Shown in pieces: positions 16,217 through 31,962 of a DNA stretch of 57,169 bases. Numbering within the stretch: the first letter of the stretch is position 1; every line of letters begins with the position of its first letter. Under the pieces are notes generated by a model that saw nothing but the letters and a program-made list of their open reading frames with translations, was not told the DNA's origin and made no database searches. The position numbers and the translations under genes were made by a program. Source of the stretch: Methanoculleus chikugoensis (GTDB lineage Archaea > Halobacteriota > Methanomicrobia > Methanomicrobiales > Methanoculleaceae). The stretch lies in NCBI RefSeq assembly GCF_900095385.1, contig NZ_FMID01000014.1:1-57169 (forward strand). The letters are read 5' to 3'.

Positions 16217-17188
16217 ATGACGCACCTTCTGTTCTTTGCCGTTGAGGGGATACCCTGCGCTCTTCCTCTCGCCGATATCCGGCAGGTTGTCGGCATGGTG
16301 GAACTCCAGCCGGAGACCGGCAAACGCCGCGGGGGAGCGGGAACCATGAACCTGCACGGCAGAACCGTCCCGGTCTACTCGCTCCGGAGTCTTCTCGGGC
16401 TCGCCGAGCGCCCTCCTCTCCCCACCGACGTCCTCATCATCGCTCACCCCCCCGGAGAATGCGCGGCCCTCTGGGCGGACGGGGTGCGGGGGGTGCAGGA
16501 GAGCCGGGTGCAACTCCCGCCCGACGCCTCCCCCTCTCCCGGCGCGCTGCCGACCGAAGAAGGAGAGATCATCATCCACGATCTCGGCGCGTTCCTTGCA
16601 GCGGAAGAGACCGCGCACCACCTCCTCCCGGCCGGCGCGACCGTTACCGGGGGGGCGGCACCGCCTCACGACGCCGAAAAGGCCGGTGAGATCCTCGCAG
16701 AACGGGCGCGGGCGTTCGCGCGGCCCGAGAAAGAGAATGGCGAGACCCCGTTCTCGGAACTCCTCACGTTCAGGCTCGCGGGTCAGGAGTACGCCATCAA
16801 GACACAGTACATCCGCGAAGTCTTCATCATGCACGAGATCACCCCGGTCCCCGGGGTTCCCGACTTCATCGTCGGGATCTGTGCCGTCAGGGGCGAGATC
16901 ATCTCCGTCGTCGATCTCCGCGCACTCTTCTCGATCCCGAAACACGGCCTGACCGACCTCAACCGGGTCATCGTCCTCTCCGACGGGACGGTGACCTTTG
17001 GAATTCTTGCGGACTACATCACGGACATCTACATCCGGCCGACCGATCAGTTCTCCCCCATAGAGCCCGGCACGACGCCTATCGAGCAGCGTTACCTCCT
17101 GGGCGCCATAGACGAATCGGTGATCGCCCTCGACGCGGCCGCGATCCTCGCCGACCCCGCGATGGTGATTGACCAGACGAGAAAATAG
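16217..17188 (+). CDS. Double CheW-domain chemosensory coupling protein
   Basis: 323 residues carrying two CheW domains. The first (about 1-135) starts LLFFAVEGIPCALPLADIRQV and has the NLHGRTVPVYSL strand. After an Ala/Glu-rich linker the second (about 180-320) reads LLTFRLAGQEYAIKTQYIREV, with the CheW core VPGVPDFIVGICAVRGEIISVVDL. CheW couples receptors to CheA; two domains in tandem could bridge receptor and kinase arrays. The first domain is more diverged and shorter than the second. A TATA-like CTTTTATC at 16171-16178 lies upstream. The chemoreceptor gene follows at 17318. Confidence 0.85.
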   Translation: MTHLLFFAVEGIPCALPLADIRQVVGMVELQPETGKRRGGAGTMNLHGRTVPVYSLRSLLGLAERPPLPTDVLIIAHPPGECAALWADGVRGVQESRVQLPPDASPSPGALPTEEGEIIIHDLGAFLAAEETAHHLLPAGATVTGGAAPPHDAEKAGEILAERARAFARPEKENGETPFSELLTFRLAGQEYAIKTQYIREVFIMHEITPVPGVPDFIVGICAVRGEIISVVDLRALFSIPKHGLTDLNRVIVLSDGTVTFGILADYITDIYIRPTDQFSPIEPGTTPIEQRYLLGAIDESVIALDAAAILADPAMVIDQTRK

Positions 17189-17258: not shown

Positions 17259-17317
17259 CCCGGAGTGTGCATCAATCTATTAAGTCGTCGTACAAGAGCG
17301 AGTGGAACGGAAGTAGC

Positions 17318-19699
17318 ATGTTCACATTTTTTTCAGACATGAAGGTCGGGACGAAGATCCTCGTCATCTGCCTATTTCTGGCGATCATCCCGACGCTTAT
17401 GCTCGGCATAGTGGCGTATACCAGTTCGAGCGGTGTGATCAACGACCAGATCGAGACGCTGCTCGAGACGCAGGTGCACGACGCGCGGGGATGGACCAAC
17501 GACGTCTACAAACTCACGCGCAACAAGGTGAACAGCGACCTCAACGTCCTCCGGGAGAACTTCTATGCGCGGGGCACCCCCGAGGTCATCGACGGGAAAC
17601 TGACCCTGGTTGACGGGGACAGCAACCCGTACGTCATCAACGACAACTTCGAGATCGTCGACCAGGTGCAGTCCCTGGTCGGCGGGGCGGCAACGGTATT
17701 TCAGGTCTACGACGACAACGCCATCAGGGTCTCGACAAACGTCATCGGGACCGACGGCAGCCGGGCGGTCGGGACGGAACTGACCCAGAACGTCTACGAC
17801 GTCGTGGTGAACCAGGGGGAGACCTACTACGGGAGCAGGGATCTCTTCGGCAAGCGTTACGTCACTGCGTACGAGCCGATAAAGGACAGCCGCGGAAACA
17901 TCGTCGGCGTTCTCTTCGTCGGGACGGAGGAGCAGGAGACGCTCGACGTCGTCAAATCAAGCCTTAAAGAGACCGTCATCGGCCAGAACGGCTATATGTT
18001 CGTCGTCGACAGCAACGGCCAGCTGCTCGTGCACCCGGCCCGGGAGGGGGAGAACATAGCCGACGAGGATTACATCCAGGAGATGATCGAGAATAAGGTC
18101 GGCATCATCCGCCACCAGGTCGACGGAACGGATATTATCGACGCCTACACCTACTTCGAACCGCTCGACTGGCACATCGTCTCGCGTGCCGAACTCTCCG
18201 ACTTCACCGGGCCGATAGACACAATCAGGAACACCATCGTCATCGTCGTCCTCGCATCCATCGCCTTCGGCGTCGCGATCGCCATCCTCTTCGGCCGCTC
18301 GATCTCCGAACCCCTGCAGCAGGTCGTGCTGATGCTCAATGAGCTCCGGAGCGGGCATCTCTCCGCCCGGCTCAACATCAAGCGGCAGGACGAGATCGGG
18401 GTCATGGCCGCAATGATGGACGAGTTTGCCGGCGACCTCCAGACGAACGTCGTCGGGAACTTAAAAAAGATCGCCCTCGGCGAGTACGTCCAGGAGTTCC
18501 CGGTCGCCGACGAGGGCGACGAGATCCGCCCCGCGCTCGCGATGATGGTCCAGTCGCTCGACCATCTCCACAAAGAGACGCTCAAACTCACCGACGCCGC
18601 CCGGGCGGGCGACCTCTCCATCCGCGGCGATGAGAAGGCGTTCCGCGGCGGCTACCGGATGATCATCGCCGGGTTCAACAAGACCCTCGAGTCGATCACC
18701 GAACCGGTGAACGAAGCGATGCGGCTCGCGCGATTCTACGCTTCCGGCGACTTCACCGCCCGGTTCGACGAGAAGATCCCGGTCGCCGGCGAGTTCGTCG
18801 CCTACCGCGACGCTCTCAACACCATCGGCATCGAACTCTCGCGGCTGATGAAACTGATCAGCGAGGAACTCTACGAAGGCGTCTCGGTTCTCTCGCTCGC
18901 TTCAAACGAGATCCTGGCGGTCACGACCCAGCTCTCCGCCGCCAGTTCCCAGACCGCCGCAACGGTGAACGAGACATCGGACTCGGTCGAGAGCGTCAGG
19001 AAGAAGACCGAACTCGTGAACCAGAAGACGAAAGGCGTCTCGGAGAAGGCGATGCGGGCGCTCGACGTCTCCAAAGACGGCCAGAAGTCCGTGCGTGAGA
19101 TCCTGGAGGGGATGAACCAGATCCAGCGGGAGATGGATATCGTCCGGATGAACGTCATCCGGCTCTCCGAGCAGAGCCAGGCCGTCGGCGAGATCATCGC
19201 GACCGTGACCGACATCTCCGAACAGTCCAACCTGCTCGCGGTGAACGCCTCCATCGAGGCTGCAAAGGCCGGAGAGTTCGGGAAAGGGTTTGCCGTCGTC
19301 GCGAACGAGATCCATAACCTCGCCGAGCAGTCGAAGAAAGCAACCTCGAACATCCGGGCTATCCTCACCGATATCCAGCAGGGGGTCTCCTCGACCGCGG
19401 TCTCGACCGAGCAGGGGATCCGGTCCGTCGCGGACGCGGTCCGGCTGACGAACAACGCGCAGGAGGCGATAGAGGTGCTCGCCCGGTCGATAGCCGACTC
19501 CTCGCAGGAGGTCATCGAGATCGCCTCCTCGATCCAGACACAGGCCTCCGGGGTCGATCAGATCTCGCGCGCGATGGAGAACATCCGTGACGCGGCACAG
19601 AAGAACCTCGAAACCACCCATAAGGCGGAGAAGACCGCCGAGGACCTGCACGAGCTCGGTGCCCGCTTAAAGAGGATCACCCAGCAGTACCGGGTCTAG
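17318..19699 (+). CDS. Methyl-accepting chemotaxis-type receptor (Cache-HAMP-MA)
   Basis: 793 residues from ATG 17318 (an upstream GTG at 17267 precedes the probable transcription start). The first membrane helix is [21 protein letters not shown]. An extracellular Cache-type sensor follows (about 35-305), with the repeated Yxx[20 protein letters not shown] elements of Cache_3-Cache_2-type domains. The second membrane helix (about 307-330, [21 protein letters not shown]) leads into tandem HAMP-like segments. The cytoplasmic signalling hairpin tip is [19 protein letters not shown], then [11 protein letters not shown], identifying an MCP domain. It should sense a small extracellular ligand and control the CheA encoded 11 nt downstream. 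Confidence 0.9.
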
Positions 19700-19710
19700 C
19701 ACGACCTGCC

Positions 19711-22020
19711 ATGACCGGACCGGACGACGTATTTCGTGCCCGTCTCCTCGAGACGTTTCGCGAGGAGGCGGACGGGCACCTTGAAGCAATCACCGAGGGG
19801 CTGATCGCGCTCGAGAAGGCCGGGCCGACGCCCGAACTGGTCGAGCGGATTTACCGGACGGTCCACAGCCTGAAAGGAGCGTCGCGCGCGGTCAACCTCC
19901 GGGATATCGAGTCCATCTGCCAGAACATCGAGACCGTCTTCTCCCTTGTGAAGCGGGGCGAGTACGTCCCGGGAGCGGACGACTTCGATCTCTTCCACCG
20001 GGCAATCGCGGTCATAAAGAGTCTCCTCCGGGGAGAGCGGCCCGAGACCCCGCCGGCGGAGATTAACGCGGCGCTCCGGGCCGTCCCCGGCAGGAAGGAG
20101 ACGACCGGGAGCGATCTCCCGGAAGATCGGCCGGCCGGATCGGGTCCGGCCTCCGGGGGGAACCACGCGGCCGATATGCCGGGGCCCTATAACGGCAGCG
20201 AGCAAGGAGCCGACCGGGGCATGGTGCGGATCGCCGCCCACAAACTCGACCGGCTCACCGCCGGAGCCGAGAGCCTCCTCACGACCCGGCTCTTCATCAC
20301 GCAGAGGATACGCGAACTCGAGGAGATGCTGACCCGTTTCTCCCTCTGGCAGTGGAACTACTCCCAGGCGTTCAACGACCTGCAGGTGATCCGCGGGAGA
20401 GCCTTCGGGGAAGAGAAGGCGACGATTCCTCCCGATCTTGTCCTGCCGCTCCAGCGGACGGTCGAGTTTCAGGAGTACAACCGCGAGTTCATAACCAACC
20501 TCCAGCACGATGTCGCCACGCACCTGCGTTCTATGGAGATCGACCGGTCGGCACTCGAGACGAGCACATCCGAGATCTCCGACCTCGTCCACGATGCCGC
20601 GCTGCTCCCGGCTTCAACCATGCTCGCCCCCTTCTCCGCGTTCGTGAGAGAGTTCTCCCGCACCTCGGGGAAATCGGTCGACCTCGCGATCGAGGGGGGC
20701 GAGATCGAGGTCGACCGCCGGATCCTCGATGCGTTGAAGGATCCCATCACGCACCTCATACGGAACAGCATCGATCACGGCATCGAGAGCCCTGAGGCCA
20801 GAAGAGCGGAGCAAAAACCGGCCACAGGTTCCGTGCGGATCCGGGTCTTCCACCGGTCGGGGAGCAGGGTCGGCATCGAGGTGGCCGACGACGGCGCCGG
20901 CATCGACAGCAGCGCGATCCGGAGGACCGCCGTCGAGAACGCCGTGATCACGGAGGACGAGGATAGAGCCCTCACGGACAGCGAGGCGATCTGGCTCATC
21001 TTCCGCTCGGGGATGACCACGAGCCGGATCGTCACCGATCTCTCGGGGAGGGGGCTCGGGCTTGCGATCGTGGAAGACACCGTCTCCCGTCTCGGGGGAA
21101 CAGTGACGGTCTCCTCGACCGTCGGCAGGGGGACGGCGATAACCCTGACCGTCCCGGTGAGGATGGCCACCCTCCGCGGGCTGCTCGTCCGCTCTGAGCG
21201 GCAGGTATACGTCCTCCCGATGCAGCAGGTGAAGCAGGTTCTCCGGGTTCGCCCGGACTCCCTGACCATCACGAAGGGGCGGCCGACGATCAGCCTCGCG
21301 GGGGAGACGATCGAGGTCATCCGGCTCACCGACGCCCTGGGCATCCCCTCGTCCGGCCCTGCCGGGGAGGAGGAGCGGCCGAAGCCCCTCGTCATCATCG
21401 CCTACGGGGCCGGGCAGATCGCGGGGATGGTCGACGAGGTGATCCGGGTCCAGGAGATCGTCGTCCGGCCGCTCGGAAGCCAGCTCGTCTCTGTGCGGAG
21501 GATCGACGGGGCCGTGACCCTCGGGGACGGCCGTCTGGCGCTCGTCCTCGATCCGCTCGAACTGATCCAGGACGCGATGCAGGCGGAACGGCCGGTGCCT
21601 GCATCCGCGCTCCCGCAGGCGGCACAGCAGCGGATCCTGGTTGTCGATGACTCGGTCACGTCGCGTGCCCTGCTGCAGGCGATACTCGAAGGGGCCGGAT
21701 ATCAGGTGGAGACCGCTGTCAACGGGATCGACGCATTCGCAAGGCTTAAGCAGCATGAGTTTGATATGGTCGTTTCAGATGTTGATATGCCCCGGATGAA
21801 CGGTTTTACGCTCACCGAGAAGATCCGGGCCGAAGGCGGGCAGGTTGCCCGGACCCGGGTGGTGCTCGTCACCTCGCTCGGTTCACCTGAAGACCGGGAG
21901 CGGGGAAAGACGGTCGGGGCGGATGGATATATCGTCAAGAAGAGCTTCGAGGCGGAAGAGTTTCTCAAGATAGTCCGGCGCCTGATGCGCCGCCGCGAGG
22001 GAGAGAGAGAGGAGCGATGA
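19711..22020 (+). CDS. Hybrid CheA histidine kinase with C-terminal receiver domain
   Basis: 769 residues. Domains: Hpt (P1) with phospho-acceptor His52 in TVHSLKGASRAV; a linker of about 90 residues with no recognisable P2 domain; a dimerisation region; an HATPase domain with N-box HLIRNSIDHGIE and G-boxes DDGAGI and GRGLGLAIV; a CheW-like regulatory domain (about 480-620); and a receiver domain with the phospho-acceptor near Asp690 in VVSDVDMPRMNG and the switch Lys in GADGYIVKK. This fused architecture provides its own receiver sink. No separate cheY, cheB, cheR, cheC or cheD lies nearby, so the output is probably not classical archaellum control. It ends 1 nt before an in-frame ATG of the next gene. 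Confidence 0.9.
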   Translation: MTGPDDVFRARLLETFREEADGHLEAITEGLIALEKAGPTPELVERIYRTVHSLKGASRAVNLRDIESICQNIETVFSLVKRGEYVPGADDFDLFHRAIAVIKSLLRGERPETPPAEINAALRAVPGRKETTGSDLPEDRPAGSGPASGGNHAADMPGPYNGSEQGADRGMVRIAAHKLDRLTAGAESLLTTRLFITQRIRELEEMLTRFSLWQWNYSQAFNDLQVIRGRAFGEEKATIPPDLVLPLQRTVEFQEYNREFITNLQHDVATHLRSMEIDRSALETSTSEISDLVHDAALLPASTMLAPFSAFVREFSRTSGKSVDLAIEGGEIEVDRRILDALKDPITHLIRNSIDHGIESPEARRAEQKPATGSVRIRVFHRSGSRVGIEVADDGAGIDSSAIRRTAVENAVITEDEDRALTDSEAIWLIFRSGMTTSRIVTDLSGRGLGLAIVEDTVSRLGGTVTVSSTVGRGTAITLTVPVRMATLRGLLVRSERQVYVLPMQQVKQVLRVRPDSLTITKGRPTISLAGETIEVIRLTDALGIPSSGPAGEEERPKPLVIIAYGAGQIAGMVDEVIRVQEIVVRPLGSQLVSVRRIDGAVTLGDGRLALVLDPLELIQDAMQAERPVPASALPQAAQQRILVVDDSVTSRALLQAILEGAGYQVETAVNGIDAFARLKQHEFDMVVSDVDMPRMNGFTLTEKIRAEGGQVARTRVVLVTSLGSPEDRERGKTVGADGYIVKKSFEAEEFLKIVRRLMRRREGEREER

Positions 22021-22051
22021 TATGGAAGGGAAGCATGCAGGAGGAACGAAA

Positions 22052-23344
22052 ATGCGCGTTCTGGTGGTAGAGGATAGCAGGACGCAGGCCGAGTTCATCC
22101 GTTACGTTCTTGAGACGGAAGGATACGACGTCACCCTGGCCGCCGACGGCACCGAGGCGATACGGCGGATGGAGGTCGACATGCCCGATATCGTCCTGAC
22201 CGACATCATGATGCCCGGGATGGACGGGTACGAACTCTGCCGCCGGATCAAGCAGCAGAGGCCGGATACACCCGTCATCCTGGTCACCAGCCTCTTCGAT
22301 CCCGCCGACGTGCTGAAAGGGCTTGCATCGGGAGCGGACAATTTCATCGTGAAACCCGTCGACCCGGAGCACGTCCGCTCCCAGATCGAGGCCGTCACGC
22401 GGGTGCGGGAGATCTCCGAACCGGAAGATTCTCCCGCCGAACTGGAGATCCCCTTCGCCGGCAGCACCTACACCATCGCCGCAGGACGGCTCAAGATCCT
22501 GAACACCCTTCTCTCGACGTACACGATCGCGGTGACGAAGAACACCGAACTCCAGGAGGCGCAGGAGCAGCTGCACTCCCTGAACGAACAGCTCCAGGAG
22601 GCCGTCGCGGATCTCTCGCGCAGCAACGAGAGCCTGGCCGCCGAGAACCAGGAACGGCGCCGCGTGGAGAAAGCGCTCGCGGATGCCAACCGGAAACTCC
22701 AGCTCATGGCAAGCATCACCCGCCACGACCTCTTGAACCAGCTCGCGGCGCTCTGGGGGTATCTCGACCTGGCCCAGATACTGCGCGAGCGCGAACCGGA
22801 AAACGCGTGGCGCCACGTCGATAGCGCTGCCGAGATGGTGAACCGGATCAACAACACCGTCCGGTTTACGGCCGAGTACCAGAAGGTGGGGTCGGCGGCT
22901 CCGACCTGGCAGGAGATCAGGACGATTGTGGAGCGGTCGGAGAAGTACGTCTCGACGGGCAAGGTCACCCTTGAGAACGCCGTTCCGGCGGGGGTGGAGA
23001 TCTTCGCCGACCCGCTCATCGAGAAGGTATTCTCGAACCTTATCGAGAACGCGCTGCGCTACGGGGAGACGATCACCACCATCACCTTCAGCCTCAAACA
23101 GGACAAAGAGACCTACACCCTCCTCTGCGAGGATGACGGGGTGGGGATTCCTGCCGACGAGAAGGAGAAGATCTTCACCTACGCGCACGGCATGAACACC
23201 GGACTCGGTCTCTTCCTCGCGCGGGAGATCCTGGCCATAACCGGGATCTCCATCCAGGAGACGGGGACCCCCGGGAACGGAGCACGGTTCGAGATCCTCT
23301 GCCCGGCAGAGACGATCCGCGCTCCCGGCCGGCAGACCGGATGA
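22052..23344 (+). CDS. Receiver-histidine kinase hybrid (REC-coil-HK)
   Basis: 430 residues. An ATG exists at 22022, but 22052 is preceded by AGGAGG 7 nt upstream and begins directly with the receiver strand MRVLVVEDSR. Receiver: Asp51 in VLTDIMMPGMDGY, Lys101 in FIVKP. Then a coiled coil (about 160-215), an H-box with His225 in ITRHDLLNQL, and an HATPase domain with SNLIENALRYGE, CEDDGVGIP and GLGLFLAREILAITGI. This soluble orphan-type methanogen kinase could be driven by phosphotransfer from CheA-REC and pass the signal on. The adjacent kinase gene is a paralogue whose His is replaced. Confidence 0.88.
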   Translation: MRVLVVEDSRTQAEFIRYVLETEGYDVTLAADGTEAIRRMEVDMPDIVLTDIMMPGMDGYELCRRIKQQRPDTPVILVTSLFDPADVLKGLASGADNFIVKPVDPEHVRSQIEAVTRVREISEPEDSPAELEIPFAGSTYTIAAGRLKILNTLLSTYTIAVTKNTELQEAQEQLHSLNEQLQEAVADLSRSNESLAAENQERRRVEKALADANRKLQLMASITRHDLLNQLAALWGYLDLAQILREREPENAWRHVDSAAEMVNRINNTVRFTAEYQKVGSAAPTWQEIRTIVERSEKYVSTGKVTLENAVPAGVEIFADPLIEKVFSNLIENALRYGETITTITFSLKQDKETYTLLCEDDGVGIPADEKEKIFTYAHGMNTGLGLFLAREILAITGISIQETGTPGNGARFEILCPAETIRAPGRQTG

Positions 23345-23372: not shown

Positions 23373-24779
23373 ATGAACGTCACCGACATTCAGACCGCGC
23401 TTGTCACCGATACGCGCAACCGCATCGCGATCATCGCCGGGCTAGCCGTGCTGACCCTCGGCGGCAACCTGCTCGCCATGGTCCTCGGCGCACCGGAGAG
23501 CCTTCTCCCCCTCCCCACCCTCCCGCTCACCATCCCGATCATCATTGCGAGTTACTGGTACCCGCGGCGGGGCATCCCCGTCTCCGTCTGCTTCGCATCC
23601 GTCTATGCCGTCACGACCTACATCCTCTCTCCGCCGGGCCCCCTGCTCGCGTATACCATCCTCCTGCGTGCGATCCTCCTCGTCCTCATCGGCGGCGTGG
23701 TTGCGTTTCTCGCGACGAAACTCCGGGAGTCCGAGCAGCAGATGAACCAGATCATCGAGTTCCTGCCCGACGCGACCTTCGCCATCGACCGCGAGGGGAA
23801 GGTCATCGCCTGGAACCGCGCGATCGAGGAGATGACCGGGGTGAAGAAAGAGGCCATCCTCGGTCGGGGGGGCTACGAGTACGCCGTGCCCTTCTACGGC
23901 GAACCGCGGCCGCTGCTTGCAGACCTTATCCTCCACGGCGATCCCGAGACCGGGTACCCGTCGGTCAGGAGGGACGGCGACGTCCTCGTCGCGGAGATCC
24001 ACACCCCTCTTCTCAGGGGCGGGCAGGGGGCGCATATCAAGTTCGCGGCGACCGCGCTTCTCGACCGGAGCGGAGAGGTCACCGGGGCCATCGAGTCCAT
24101 CCGGGACGTCAGCGACGAAGTGATGACGGAGGCCGCACTGCAGAACGCCGGCCGCCAGTTGAGCACCCTCACGGGGATCCTGCGCACCGACCTGGCGAAC
24201 CGGCTTGCGGTCCTGTACGGGCATCTCTCGGTGGGCGTGATGAAGTTCGACGATCCCGCGGTACTCTCCTTCATCGACGACCTGAACAATGCCGCAAACG
24301 GGATCCGGCGGCAGATCGAGATCTCCCGCGAGTTCCGCGACATCGGGACGTCGCCGCCGGCGTGGATCCCCGTGCAGCAGGCTGTCCGGAAGGCAGCCGC
24401 CACCCTCTCCTTCGGGAACGTCTCCCTCGATGCGTGGACGGAACGGCTCGAGATCTTCGCCGACCCCCATCTTGCGACGGTCTTCACGCACCTCTTCGAG
24501 AACTCGCTCGCTCCGGCGACGAAGGCGAGCAGGATCGTCGTCACCTACCACCTGCGCCCGGAGGGCTGTGCGATCATCGTCGAGGACGACGGGACCGGTA
24601 TCCCGGACGCGGAGAAGAAAGGTCTTTTTGCGCAGAAGGCGGAGAGTTACGGGCACGGGCTCTTCCTCGCCCACGAGATCCTTGCCATCACCGGGATCTC
24701 AATACGCGAGACCGGGACGTTCGGGACGGGGGCGAGGTTCGAGATCCTGGTGCCGCCCGAAGGATACAGGGTGGTATGA
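23373..24779 (+). CDS. Membrane PAS histidine-kinase-like protein lacking the phospho-acceptor His
   Basis: 468 residues. Four membrane helices lie in the first 115 residues (AIIAGLAVLTLGGNLLAMVLG; LTIPIIIASYW; SVCFASVYAVTTYIL; ILLRAILLVLIGGVVAFLA). A PAS domain follows (about 122-248; FLPDATFAIDREGKVIAWNRAIEEMTGV), then a kinase core. At the H-box the protein reads ILRTDLANRL, with Thr272 where the neighbouring paralogue has ITRHDLLNQL. The ATPase region keeps EDDGTGIPDAEKKGLF and GHGLFLAHEILAITGI, so nucleotide binding may persist. It may therefore be a pseudo-kinase or a sensor phosphorylating another protein's His in trans. Spacing and orientation place it in the chemosensory operon. Confidence 0.85.
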   Translation: MNVTDIQTALVTDTRNRIAIIAGLAVLTLGGNLLAMVLGAPESLLPLPTLPLTIPIIIASYWYPRRGIPVSVCFASVYAVTTYILSPPGPLLAYTILLRAILLVLIGGVVAFLATKLRESEQQMNQIIEFLPDATFAIDREGKVIAWNRAIEEMTGVKKEAILGRGGYEYAVPFYGEPRPLLADLILHGDPETGYPSVRRDGDVLVAEIHTPLLRGGQGAHIKFAATALLDRSGEVTGAIESIRDVSDEVMTEAALQNAGRQLSTLTGILRTDLANRLAVLYGHLSVGVMKFDDPAVLSFIDDLNNAANGIRRQIEISREFRDIGTSPPAWIPVQQAVRKAAATLSFGNVSLDAWTERLEIFADPHLATVFTHLFENSLAPATKASRIVVTYHLRPEGCAIIVEDDGTGIPDAEKKGLFAQKAESYGHGLFLAHEILAITGISIRETGTFGTGARFEILVPPEGYRVV

Positions 24780-24789
24780 GGCTATCGGG

Positions 24790-25344
24790 ATGATAACGGC
24801 TGTTATTTCAGGAAACGGGATGGCGGCAACCGGGATCCGGCCGGAGGTTCGTGAACTGACGAGCGCGGAGTTCCCCGCTGCAAACGAGGTATGGCGCGAT
24901 TACCACGGCACAATCGGCGAACCCGCACGGGACCGGATCTTCGCGACCTTCCTTGCAGGGCAGATCGTCTCTCTCGCCCGGTGCAGGGGACCTCGCCCGG
25001 GTCCAGGCCCGGCAGCGGCTCGTCTTGCAGGGCAGATCGTCTCTCTCGCCCGGTGCAGGAGGCATCCCGACGGCCTGGAGGTCGACGGCGTCTTCACGCC
25101 CGACGCCTGCCGCAACAAGGGGTATGCCCGGATGGTGATGAGCGCTCTTGTTGTGGCCTGCCACAACGACGACCTCTACATGTACGCCGTCGAGAGCCTC
25201 GCCGGGTTCTACGCGGGATTCGGGTTCATCTCGATACCGGAACGCGACCTCCCGCCCGGTATCCGGGAGCGCTACACCTGGGCGGCGGGGAACATGGAAG
25301 GCGCCGAGGTCCGGCCGATGTTCAGGAGAGCCGGGCTGTTGTAG
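24790..25344 (+). CDS. GNAT-family N-acetyltransferase with an internal 24-residue duplication
   Basis: About 184 residues. The acetyl-CoA-binding core is visible: LEVDGVFTPDACRNKGYARMVMSAL corresponds to the GNAT V-x-P-x-x-RxxG/AxxL element (here RNKGYAR) and is followed by LYMYAVESLAGFYAGFGFISIP, the strand-helix before the substrate site. A 36-nt sequence occurs twice, at 24952-24987 and 25024-25059, 72 bp apart and in frame. The product thus carries LAGQIVSLARCR twice, separated by a Pro/Gly/Ala-rich linker, within the first beta-strand pair. ATG 24820 (preceded by AGGAAA) is an alternative start. The substrate is unknown; it lies 10 nt after the kinase gene. Confidence 0.75.
   Translation: MITAVISGNGMAATGIRPEVRELTSAEFPAANEVWRDYHGTIGEPARDRIFATFLAGQIVSLARCRGPRPGPGPAAARLAGQIVSLARCRRHPDGLEVDGVFTPDACRNKGYARMVMSALVVACHNDDLYMYAVESLAGFYAGFGFISIPERDLPPGIRERYTWAAGNMEGAEVRPMFRRAGLL
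24952..25059 (+). repeat. In-frame 36-bp direct repeat with 36-bp spacer inside the GNAT gene
   Basis: Two identical 36-nt copies (24952-24987 and 25024-25059; both begin CTTGCAGGGCAG) separated by 36 nt. The extra 72 bp equals exactly 24 codons, so the reading frame is preserved. Confidence 0.9.
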
Positions 25345-30740: not shown

Positions 30741-30900
30741 GTCAACTACCCCGCCCTGAAGGGCGGGGCTTGAGACTCTATCTTGTCGATAGTTCTCGTC
30801 CGGGTGGTTGACTGCACCCCTGCACCTCCAAGGTATACCTGTAGGTGCGTGCTCTGGACTCGATGTTCCGAGCACCGATAAGATCGGCATGGAGGGAGTG
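30741..30900 (-). ncRNA. Candidate omega/reRNA at the tnpB right end
   Basis: By analogy with characterised TnpB systems, the guide RNA scaffold overlaps the 3' end of tnpB and ends at the element boundary. Here the terminal hairpin (30749-30768) lies just inside GTTGAC. The guide would be the flanking sequence immediately beyond, about 30721-30740 read on the minus strand. The extent at the 5' side is a guess. Confidence 0.4.
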
Positions 30901-31962
30901 CCGGCAGCATTCGCAGACAAACGACCTTCCATTCCGATTATCCTTGCTGATATGGTTGCATCGGGGGCAGGTCTGGGAGGTATAGGCAGGATCGACATAG
31001 ACCGTCGATATACCCTTCTCCCGCGCCTTATACTCGATGAAGGACTGAAGTTCAAAGAACGCCCAGGAATGATGGGTGTATCTCCGCTTCTTGGGAGGGG
31101 TATCTGGCCGATCCCTGATCCCGGAGAGATCCTCCAACCCGATCACATCGACCCTGTTCTGAACGGCAAACCAAACGATCTCCTTCGAGACGCGGTGGTT
31201 CATATCAGTCATTAGCCGTCTCTCCCGGCCGGAGAGATGCTTCAGCATCCTCTTTGCCGACCGGGTGCCCTTCGACTGCAACCGTTTCCGCATAGTAGAA
31301 TAGATGTTGCGGAGATCCTTGGCTTTCCCGCCACAGAAGAACCGACACTTTTTGTCGGTCGTCGAGGCAACCGCAAGGAAGTTCTGCCCCACATCCACTC
31401 CCATAAAGGTTGAAGACTCCGCGACCTCACGACTCTCTGTCTCCCTCTCGCAACAGAGGTGGAAGTAGTATGTCCCGTCCTTGTGTTTCACCAGTTTCGA
31501 CGCGCCAAACTTCCAGGTTCCGTCGAGATACTGTATCATGTGAGGATACCGGAAGAACCGGTACTTCTTTCTCCCTTCGAGGGTCGTAAGACCGATCTTG
31601 TCTCCGTCAAGGGAGAAGTCTCGCCCGAAGGAGAAGGTCATAGAGGTGGGAGCATACGTGACCTGCTGCCACTCTGTTTTTTTCGTTCTGACCTGTTCCT
31701 GAAGTGTCCGATAGGTTCCAGCAACCTGTCGGACGACATTGCAGGACATCTGGGATTTCAGACCGATCTCTTCTCGGAGGGCAGGATAGACGATCTTCTG
31801 GAGGGCAGTAGAACCTTTTGGTTTCCCGAGGTTGTATACGACCGCAGAGACGTAGTTCATCCCCTCGGTGTAGGTCTGTACCGTCCGGTCAAGAAGATCG
31901 GAGTCGGGACAGTCCATCTTGAGGATGACGGTCTTCGTGGTGAGCACACATACCAATTTCAC
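30778..31962 (-). CDS. tnpB: TnpB, RNA-guided nuclease of an IS605-type element
   Basis: 394 residues, full length. The RuvC-like nuclease triad is intact: Asp190 in FMGVDVGQNF, Glu277 in VIGLEDLSG and Asp360 in LHADLIGARN. The zinc ribbon lies between the last two (CPRC at 332-335 and a Cys pair at 350/353). The N-terminal domain is the usual helical/beta RNA-binding region. TnpB uses an RNA from the element's right end to cut DNA next to a short target motif, which helps the element persist. An intact frame suggests recent activity or selection. No HTH-type tnpA accompanies it, so mobility would depend on a transposase elsewhere. Confidence 0.92.
   Translation of the reverse strand: MKLVCVLTTKTVILKMDCPDSDLLDRTVQTYTEGMNYVSAVVYNLGKPKGSTALQKIVYPALREEIGLKSQMSCNVVRQVAGTYRTLQEQVRTKKTEWQQVTYAPTSMTFSFGRDFSLDGDKIGLTTLEGRKKYRFFRYPHMIQYLDGTWKFGASKLVKHKDGTYYFHLCCERETESREVAESSTFMGVDVGQNFLAVASTTDKKCRFFCGGKAKDLRNIYSTMRKRLQSKGTRSAKRMLKHLSGRERRLMTDMNHRVSKEIVWFAVQNRVDVIGLEDLSGIRDRPDTPPKKRRYTHHSWAFFELQSFIEYKAREKGISTVYVDPAYTSQTCPRCNHISKDNRNGRSFVCECCRHSLHADLIGARNIESRARTYRYTLEVQGCSQPPGRELSTR

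Follow-up and report, generated by a model that had tools for sequence, protein, structure and literature searches.

NifL combines a PAS domain with a histidine kinase-like nucleotide-binding module and acts by contact with its partner, a transcription factor, and not by phosphotransfer, and in the cAMP-GNAT proteins of mycobacteria a ligand-sensing domain is joined to a GNAT acetyltransferase and controls it. In actinobacteria, a sensor domain is fused to the GNAT in the ACT-GNAT proteins (PMC6434083). DivL of Caulobacter has been described as a pseudo-histidine kinase that carries Tyr550 at the phospho site and works without kinase activity (PMC4211667). Among methanogens, the histidine kinase-like RdmS and MsmS of Methanosarcina acetivorans (MA_type 2) have no phospho-acceptor His, and RdmS binds and hydrolyses ATP without showing autokinase activity (PMC11784639). 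For chemosensory clusters, CheA3-CheS3 of Rhodospirillum centenum provides a case in which a receiver-bearing CheA phosphorylates a receiver-bearing kinase (PMC3868531).

The stretch of DNA analysed here (the window; 57,169 nucleotides of Methanoculleus chikugoensis, order Methanomicrobiales) is one complete contig of a 2.65-Mb genome. Downstream of the genes for a protein with two CheW domains (CheW2), a chemoreceptor (MCP), CheA and a receiver-bearing histidine kinase (REC-HK), and upstream of a GNAT gene, it encodes a histidine kinase-like protein, T-HK (Table 1). NifL addresses a transcription factor, whereas the partner proposed for T-HK is the GNAT, and instead of the ligand-sensing domain that controls the GNAT in ACT-GNAT and cAMP-GNAT proteins, the sensor predicted here is a histidine kinase that has degenerated and carries PAS and membrane segments. 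T-HK resembles DivL in its PAS domain, predicted DHp-CA fold and non-His phospho site; DivL, however, belongs to the alphaproteobacterial cell cycle, where it reads DivK~P, while T-HK is archaeal, membrane-bound, GNAT-linked and variable at this site among its orthologues. RdmS and MsmS lack the whole H-box region, which T-HK keeps with one residue replaced, and the available part of their description holds no mention of a GNAT (PMC11784639). With CheA3-CheS3 the locus shares a CheA with a receiver and a receiver-bearing histidine kinase within one chemosensory cluster, but that system has no pseudo-kinase-GNAT pair, and here only CheW2, MCP, CheA and REC-HK adjoin the pair.

Table 1. Positions of T-HK, its parts and its neighbours in the window, and of the related gene pair on contig C18 of the same genome (locus L188)
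Feature	Position	Strand	Details or basis
Protein with two CheW domains	16217..17188	+	
Chemoreceptor (Cache, HAMP, MCPsignal)	17267..19699	+	Pfam
CheA: Hpt-HATPase-CheW-REC	19711..22020	+	Pfam
REC-HK	22022..23344	+	His235, codon CAC at 22724
T-HK, putative pseudo-histidine kinase, 468 aa	23373..24779	+	Membrane segment, PAS, DHp-like, HATPase_c
T-HK hydrophobic N-terminal region, residues 14-115	23412..23717	+	AlphaFold2 helices, Kyte-Doolittle peaks
T-HK PAS domain, residues 123-249	23739..24119	+	Pfam PAS_4, PAS
T-HK DHp-like two-helix region, residues 253-330	24129..24362	+	dN/dS, model
T-HK phospho-acceptor position, Thr272	24186..24188	+	Codon ACC
T-HK HATPase_c / CA domain, residues 340-462	24390..24758	+	Pfam
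T-HK N-box His373-L-F-E-Asn377	24489..24503	+	
GNAT acetyltransferase	24820..25344	+	40 bp downstream of T-HK
C18 HK-like protein	L188 5788-7155	-	Canonical N-box, no His
C18 Usp-Usp-GNAT protein, 411 residues	L188 4543-5778	-	After the HK-like gene

Pfam matched the PAS and HATPase_c domains of T-HK (the latter at residues 366-462, E 1.3e-9) and no DHp family, and neither Pfam nor NCBIfam returned a dedicated family for T-HK or for its GNAT. The AlphaFold2 model, a monomer of modest confidence (mean pLDDT 78.5), shows four helices in the N-terminal region, where three Kyte-Doolittle peaks rise above 1.6, and two long helices at residues 247-286 and 295-323. A Foldseek search with this model returned histidine kinases in general and no specific match; the structures of DivL (4q20) and NifL-NifA (9qq6) were among the hits. 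The H-box of T-HK, ILRTDLANRL, aligned without gaps with ITRHDLLNQL of REC-HK, the preceding gene, so that Thr272 takes the place of His235, as the preliminary description had stated. Its second statement, that the ATP-binding G-boxes are kept, was also borne out: Asn377, Asp405, Gly407/409 and Gly427/429 are present, and the boxes read DDGTGIP (G1), GHGL (G2) and GTG (G3). The N-box HLFEN is not fully canonical, as His373 replaces the first Asn of NLxxN. Taking His373 as proof of a dead ATP site was considered and dropped, because CheA of the same operon, with the similar N-box THLIRN, has His at that place too. Of the features of HisKA-type histidine kinases, T-HK has a CA domain in which the N, G1 and G2 motifs are recognisable but lacks the H-box His, and it shows the DivL-type combination of PAS with a non-His residue at the phospho site; the gap-free H-box alignment sets it apart from MA_type 2 proteins, in which this region is absent.

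T-HK orthologues were found in 23 of 35 genus genomes (identity at least 71%), and all 23, from separate assemblies, have Thr at site 272; a sequencing error was therefore rejected. Thr is also fixed in the four f2 orthologues. Across the order, 54 of 232 genomes gave an orthologue at E 1e-100, with the residues T27, H23, I1, Y1, N1 and L1 at the site (51 aligned rows with T27, H20, I1, Y1, N1 and L1, plus three later rows, all H). Thr is hence fixed in the genus and not in the order. His orthologues, named beforehand together with a sequencing error as grounds for refuting the pseudo-kinase reading, do exist outside the genus (23/54); as they come with no sign of such an error, they point to a dispensable phospho site and leave that reading standing. 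On the tree of the 51 aligned orthologues, a minimum of four His/non-His changes and six residue changes at site 272 were required, and the Ile sequence was nested within the Thr clade. That sequence (L046 / L054) belongs to a genome of another family (G047) whose T-HK falls inside the Methanoculleus clade, and its cluster was likely acquired by horizontal transfer. REC-HK served as a control: in the same genomes, 51 of its 53 rows keep His, and the two exceptions are duplicated copies in one family. In the Methanocalculus family (L072-L077), the T-HK orthologue has His and Gly replaces the +1 acid, and REC-HK is duplicated, some copies having either His replaced by N or D, or Gly in the +1 position. 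No substitute His is invariant in the DHp region of the aligned orthologues; His373 is nearly so (50/51) and belongs to the N-box. Judged from the alignments, site 272 is not a Thr-specific design, and His is dispensable there.

The surroundings of the site were compared in the same 51 orthologues. The +1 position is acidic (Asp273) in 45 and Gly in six, and the +4 position reads N27, R14, K6, E3 and A1; the roles of the +1 acid and of Asn or Thr at +4 in HisKA kinases were taken from PMC3510030. Gly407, 409, 427, 429 and Leu430 are present in all 51, and Asn377 and Asp405 in 46 each. Both latter residues were lost together in five orthologues of one family, of which four have His at 272, and the three later-added orthologues include two (G213 and G214) that likewise lost both residues and kept His, so that His and the ATP site seem to decay independently in different branches. 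Independent pairs, too few in number, gave no signal of a link between His loss and Asn377 loss.

Among 20 genus members, the median pairwise dN/dS of T-HK was 0.258 for the whole gene, 0.437 for the membrane part, 0.284 for PAS, 0.196 for CA and 0.118 for DHp, compared with 0.167 for the DHp region of REC-HK. The DHp region is thus the most constrained part of T-HK despite the loss of its reactive residue, from which it follows that the gene is not decaying, and a contact surface is likely behind this conservation. With the acceptor replaced by T, I, Y, N or L among the orthologues under strong purifying selection elsewhere in the protein, the proposal that T-HK is a pseudo-kinase gains in support.

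The constant partner of T-HK is the downstream GNAT, a gene which the preliminary description had left unmentioned. Of the 52 genomes whose contig leaves room for it, 48 have the GNAT gene directly downstream of T-HK or fused with it (45 of 51, with two of the other six lacking contig room, plus all three added genomes). Fusions occur in 8 of the 54 genomes, as stop-free frames in seven genomes and in L174. Four orthologues have no adjoining GNAT (G014, G031, G019 and G022); two of these genomes, G014 and G031, have lost the CheW2-MCP-CheA-REC-HK block together with the GNAT from the same gene-order position, and the T-HK copy left behind is frameshifted in G031 and intact in G014. The four orthologues without a GNAT, and with them the case of G014, in which T-HK outlives CheW2, MCP, CheA, REC-HK and GNAT alike, speak against a regulator of the GNAT. 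Conversely, all 11 opened CheA-REC-HK clusters without T-HK are also without GNAT. In G040, some 2 kb of additional DNA interrupts the T-HK gene (L081 3977-6007).

The GNAT itself is present in 166 of 232 genomes of the order (E 1e-20), and all 65 hits among 392 sampled genomes of the phylum (E 1e-25) lie within its own order. By sequence, only remote GNATs were matched in PDB (ElaA, E 8.7e-7). Twenty GNAT loci were opened, picked by genus for spread before any H-box had been seen: 13 have an HK-like protein adjacent or fused, three of these with His at the site, and the other seven have no same-strand HK-like neighbour and encode Usp-GNAT proteins only (L193, L196, L197, L199, L202, L208 and L209). 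It may be that this GNAT is regulated by Usp modules in some cases and by HK-like modules in others.

T-HK belongs to a wider clade of 4TM-PAS-DHp-ATPase proteins which are adjacent to or fused with this one order-specific GNAT. Its next best relative in the genome, on contig C18 (37% identity), reads RSDL at the site, and the GNAT domain of the Usp-Usp-GNAT protein encoded beside it is 52% identical to the window GNAT; in the genus relatives of this HK-like protein that were compared, the site is N, S or R and never His (9/9). HK-GNAT fusions of 607-627 residues in Methanoregulaceae have Asp at the site, followed immediately by His in eight of nine; these xDHL (one xDYL) proteins are at L113, L116, L195, L198, L200, L201, L205, L206 and L207. 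Asp, Ser, Asn, Arg and Gln all occur at the phospho site of linked relatives.

For a census, all HK-like domains of every fetched locus were collected and duplicates removed (237 rows), giving 72 GNAT-linked domains (17 fused, 55 adjacent) and 137 unlinked ones with a readable site. Rows were excluded if their locus ended less than 1500 bases downstream, which removed 27 (24 with His, 3 with Thr); a further row has a gap at the phospho site and was excluded as well. Five REC-HK rows scripted as adjacent were moved to the unlinked class, as the next ORF was a fused T-HK-GNAT, and L203, whose GNAT sits in a longer overlapping frame, was moved to the linked class by hand. The canonical His was found in 24 of 72 linked vs. 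126 of 137 unlinked domains, and His, acid, N-box Asn and G1 Asp, a minimal kinase set, occur together in 13/72 vs. 120/137, or 1/72 vs. 118/137 when Asn/Thr at +4 was added, while the pair of ATP-site residues was present in 64/72 vs. 131/137. Relatedness among the rows and their retrieval by similarity inflate the Fisher value (p 7e-19), which is given no weight. By the residues tested, 13 of the 72 linked domains could still be kinases.

In a tree of 117 domains (59 linked, 58 unlinked, after thinning of the linked rows and of the unlinked rows with His), the linked rows, T-HK among them, form one side of a 100/99 branch, and the linkage label needs a single change. His/non-His changes number seven among the linked and three among the unlinked rows. 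L117, with a very long branch, was left out, and a quicker tree that includes it needs two linkage changes; the four T-HK orthologues without a GNAT neighbour fell outside the tree owing to unknown linkage, duplicates and dropped rows. Groups without His exist among unlinked HK-like proteins as well (L088 10403-12346, L121, L149, L150, L183; L106, L131, L170), with the motifs TFxDIQN and TRKDLTN / TRRELTN.

The loss of His, the conservation of the rest of the protein, the ATP-site residues, the single GNAT-linked clade and the adjacency or fusion are direct observations. Building on them, we see an even chance that T-HK is a nucleotide-binding pseudo-histidine kinase which serves as sensor and regulator of the adjoining GNAT. 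The membrane segment and PAS domain would sense a signal, the DHp-like helices would dimerise and relay the state, the CA domain would still bind ATP or ADP, and the output would go to the GNAT, which is fused C-terminally in some relatives, and not to a receiver via phosphotransfer. No phosphate need then pass through His, which would explain the repeated replacement of His alongside an ATP site that is mostly retained. The T-HK-GNAT pair would have been added to a chemosensory operon (CheW-MCP-CheA-REC-HK) in this branch, where the DHp surface might additionally dock the receiver of REC-HK or CheA as a second input. Against regulation of the GNAT by a pseudo-kinase stand the retention of His in about a third of the linked domains, the 13 that could still be kinases, and the seven opened GNAT loci without an HK-like neighbour. 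One sub-clade has lost ATP-site residues, and in seven of its eight rows shown His is kept or lost in no fixed order; ATP binding is therefore not universal.

Docking of a receiver could instead be the main task, with T-HK as a reader of the DivL kind whose DHp region binds the phosphorylated receiver of REC-HK or CheA and relays this, the GNAT link being secondary. The fixed place of T-HK behind CheA-REC and REC-HK, the strong constraint on its DHp region and the presence of 4q20 among the structural matches agree with this, as does the report that DivL, which carries Tyr at the site and has neither kinase nor phosphatase activity, binds DivK~P (PMC4211667). We nevertheless consider it unlikely, because the wider clade is GNAT-linked without adjoining chemosensory genes, which rules out receiver docking as the general function, and the model matches histidine kinases generally. 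It is improbable, too, that T-HK is a phosphatase-only kinase relative which, lacking His, is unable to phosphorylate and strips phosphate from a receiver through its +1 acid and +4 Asn (T-D-x-x-N). HisKA kinases use Asn or Thr at +4 for their phosphatase activity (PMC3510030), and the +4 Asn is kept in 27 of 28 rows of the T and I lineages (one Lys), but R, K, E or A takes its place in orthologues outside these lineages, and N or T is found in just 25 of 72 linked domains, so that such an activity could hold for this branch only.

The preliminary description had T-HK acting in trans on REC-HK. In its full form, T-HK and REC-HK would build a heterodimer in which the CA domain of T-HK phosphorylates His235, or in which pairing tunes REC-HK; the two genes are adjacent, their DHp regions are related, and 20 of the 35 genus genomes retain both. 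This idea fared poorly and has a slender chance of being right: REC-HK has its own His, ATP site and full set of kinase residues, it occurs with CheA and without T-HK in all 11 opened clusters and survives alone in G010 and G030, and T-HK stands alone in G014. That Thr272 became a new phospho-acceptor of a Ser/Thr-type autokinase would fit its presence in all genus and f2 orthologues, but is very improbable given Ile nested in the Thr clade and Leu, Asn, Tyr and His elsewhere, residues which rule out Thr as a conserved acceptor in general, and given the variety of residues in the linked relatives. The frameshifted copy in G031 and the split copy in G040 would suit a decaying gene without function, a reading that is scarcely credible with the frame open in the window and most orthologues and the dN/dS values reported above.

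Pseudo-histidine kinases have so far mostly been single cases, and the GNAT-linked proteins offer a natural series in one operon family, with His kept or replaced by at least six residues, the ATP site kept or lost, and the partner adjacent or fused, in which one can ask what a kinase core does once phosphotransfer is gone. For most members of this clade, annotation as a histidine kinase is incorrect. Should the GNAT be the output, components of archaeal two-component systems would feed protein or metabolite acetylation directly; our literature searches found no published link of this kind, and the main text of a census of archaeal two-component systems does not mention acetyltransferases (PMC5847659). 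More tentatively, and with somewhat less than an even chance, the clade could be an order-wide Methanomicrobiales family in which the kinase core was turned into a nucleotide-gated acetyltransferase sensor that passes environmental signals on to acetylation, and which is here plugged into a chemosensory array.

Two further observations were made in the window. A 35-base direct repeat (at 24952 and 25024; span 24952-25058) lengthens the GNAT gene by 24 in-frame codons that are absent from the nine relatives aligned with it. Tandem Repeats Finder reported nothing for this piece, and the duplication was found by direct match; it might alter the activity of the window GNAT or be an assembly fault. 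A TnpB-like gene with OrfB_IS605 and Cas12f1-like_TNB domains (Pfam) lies at 30778-31962 on the minus strand.
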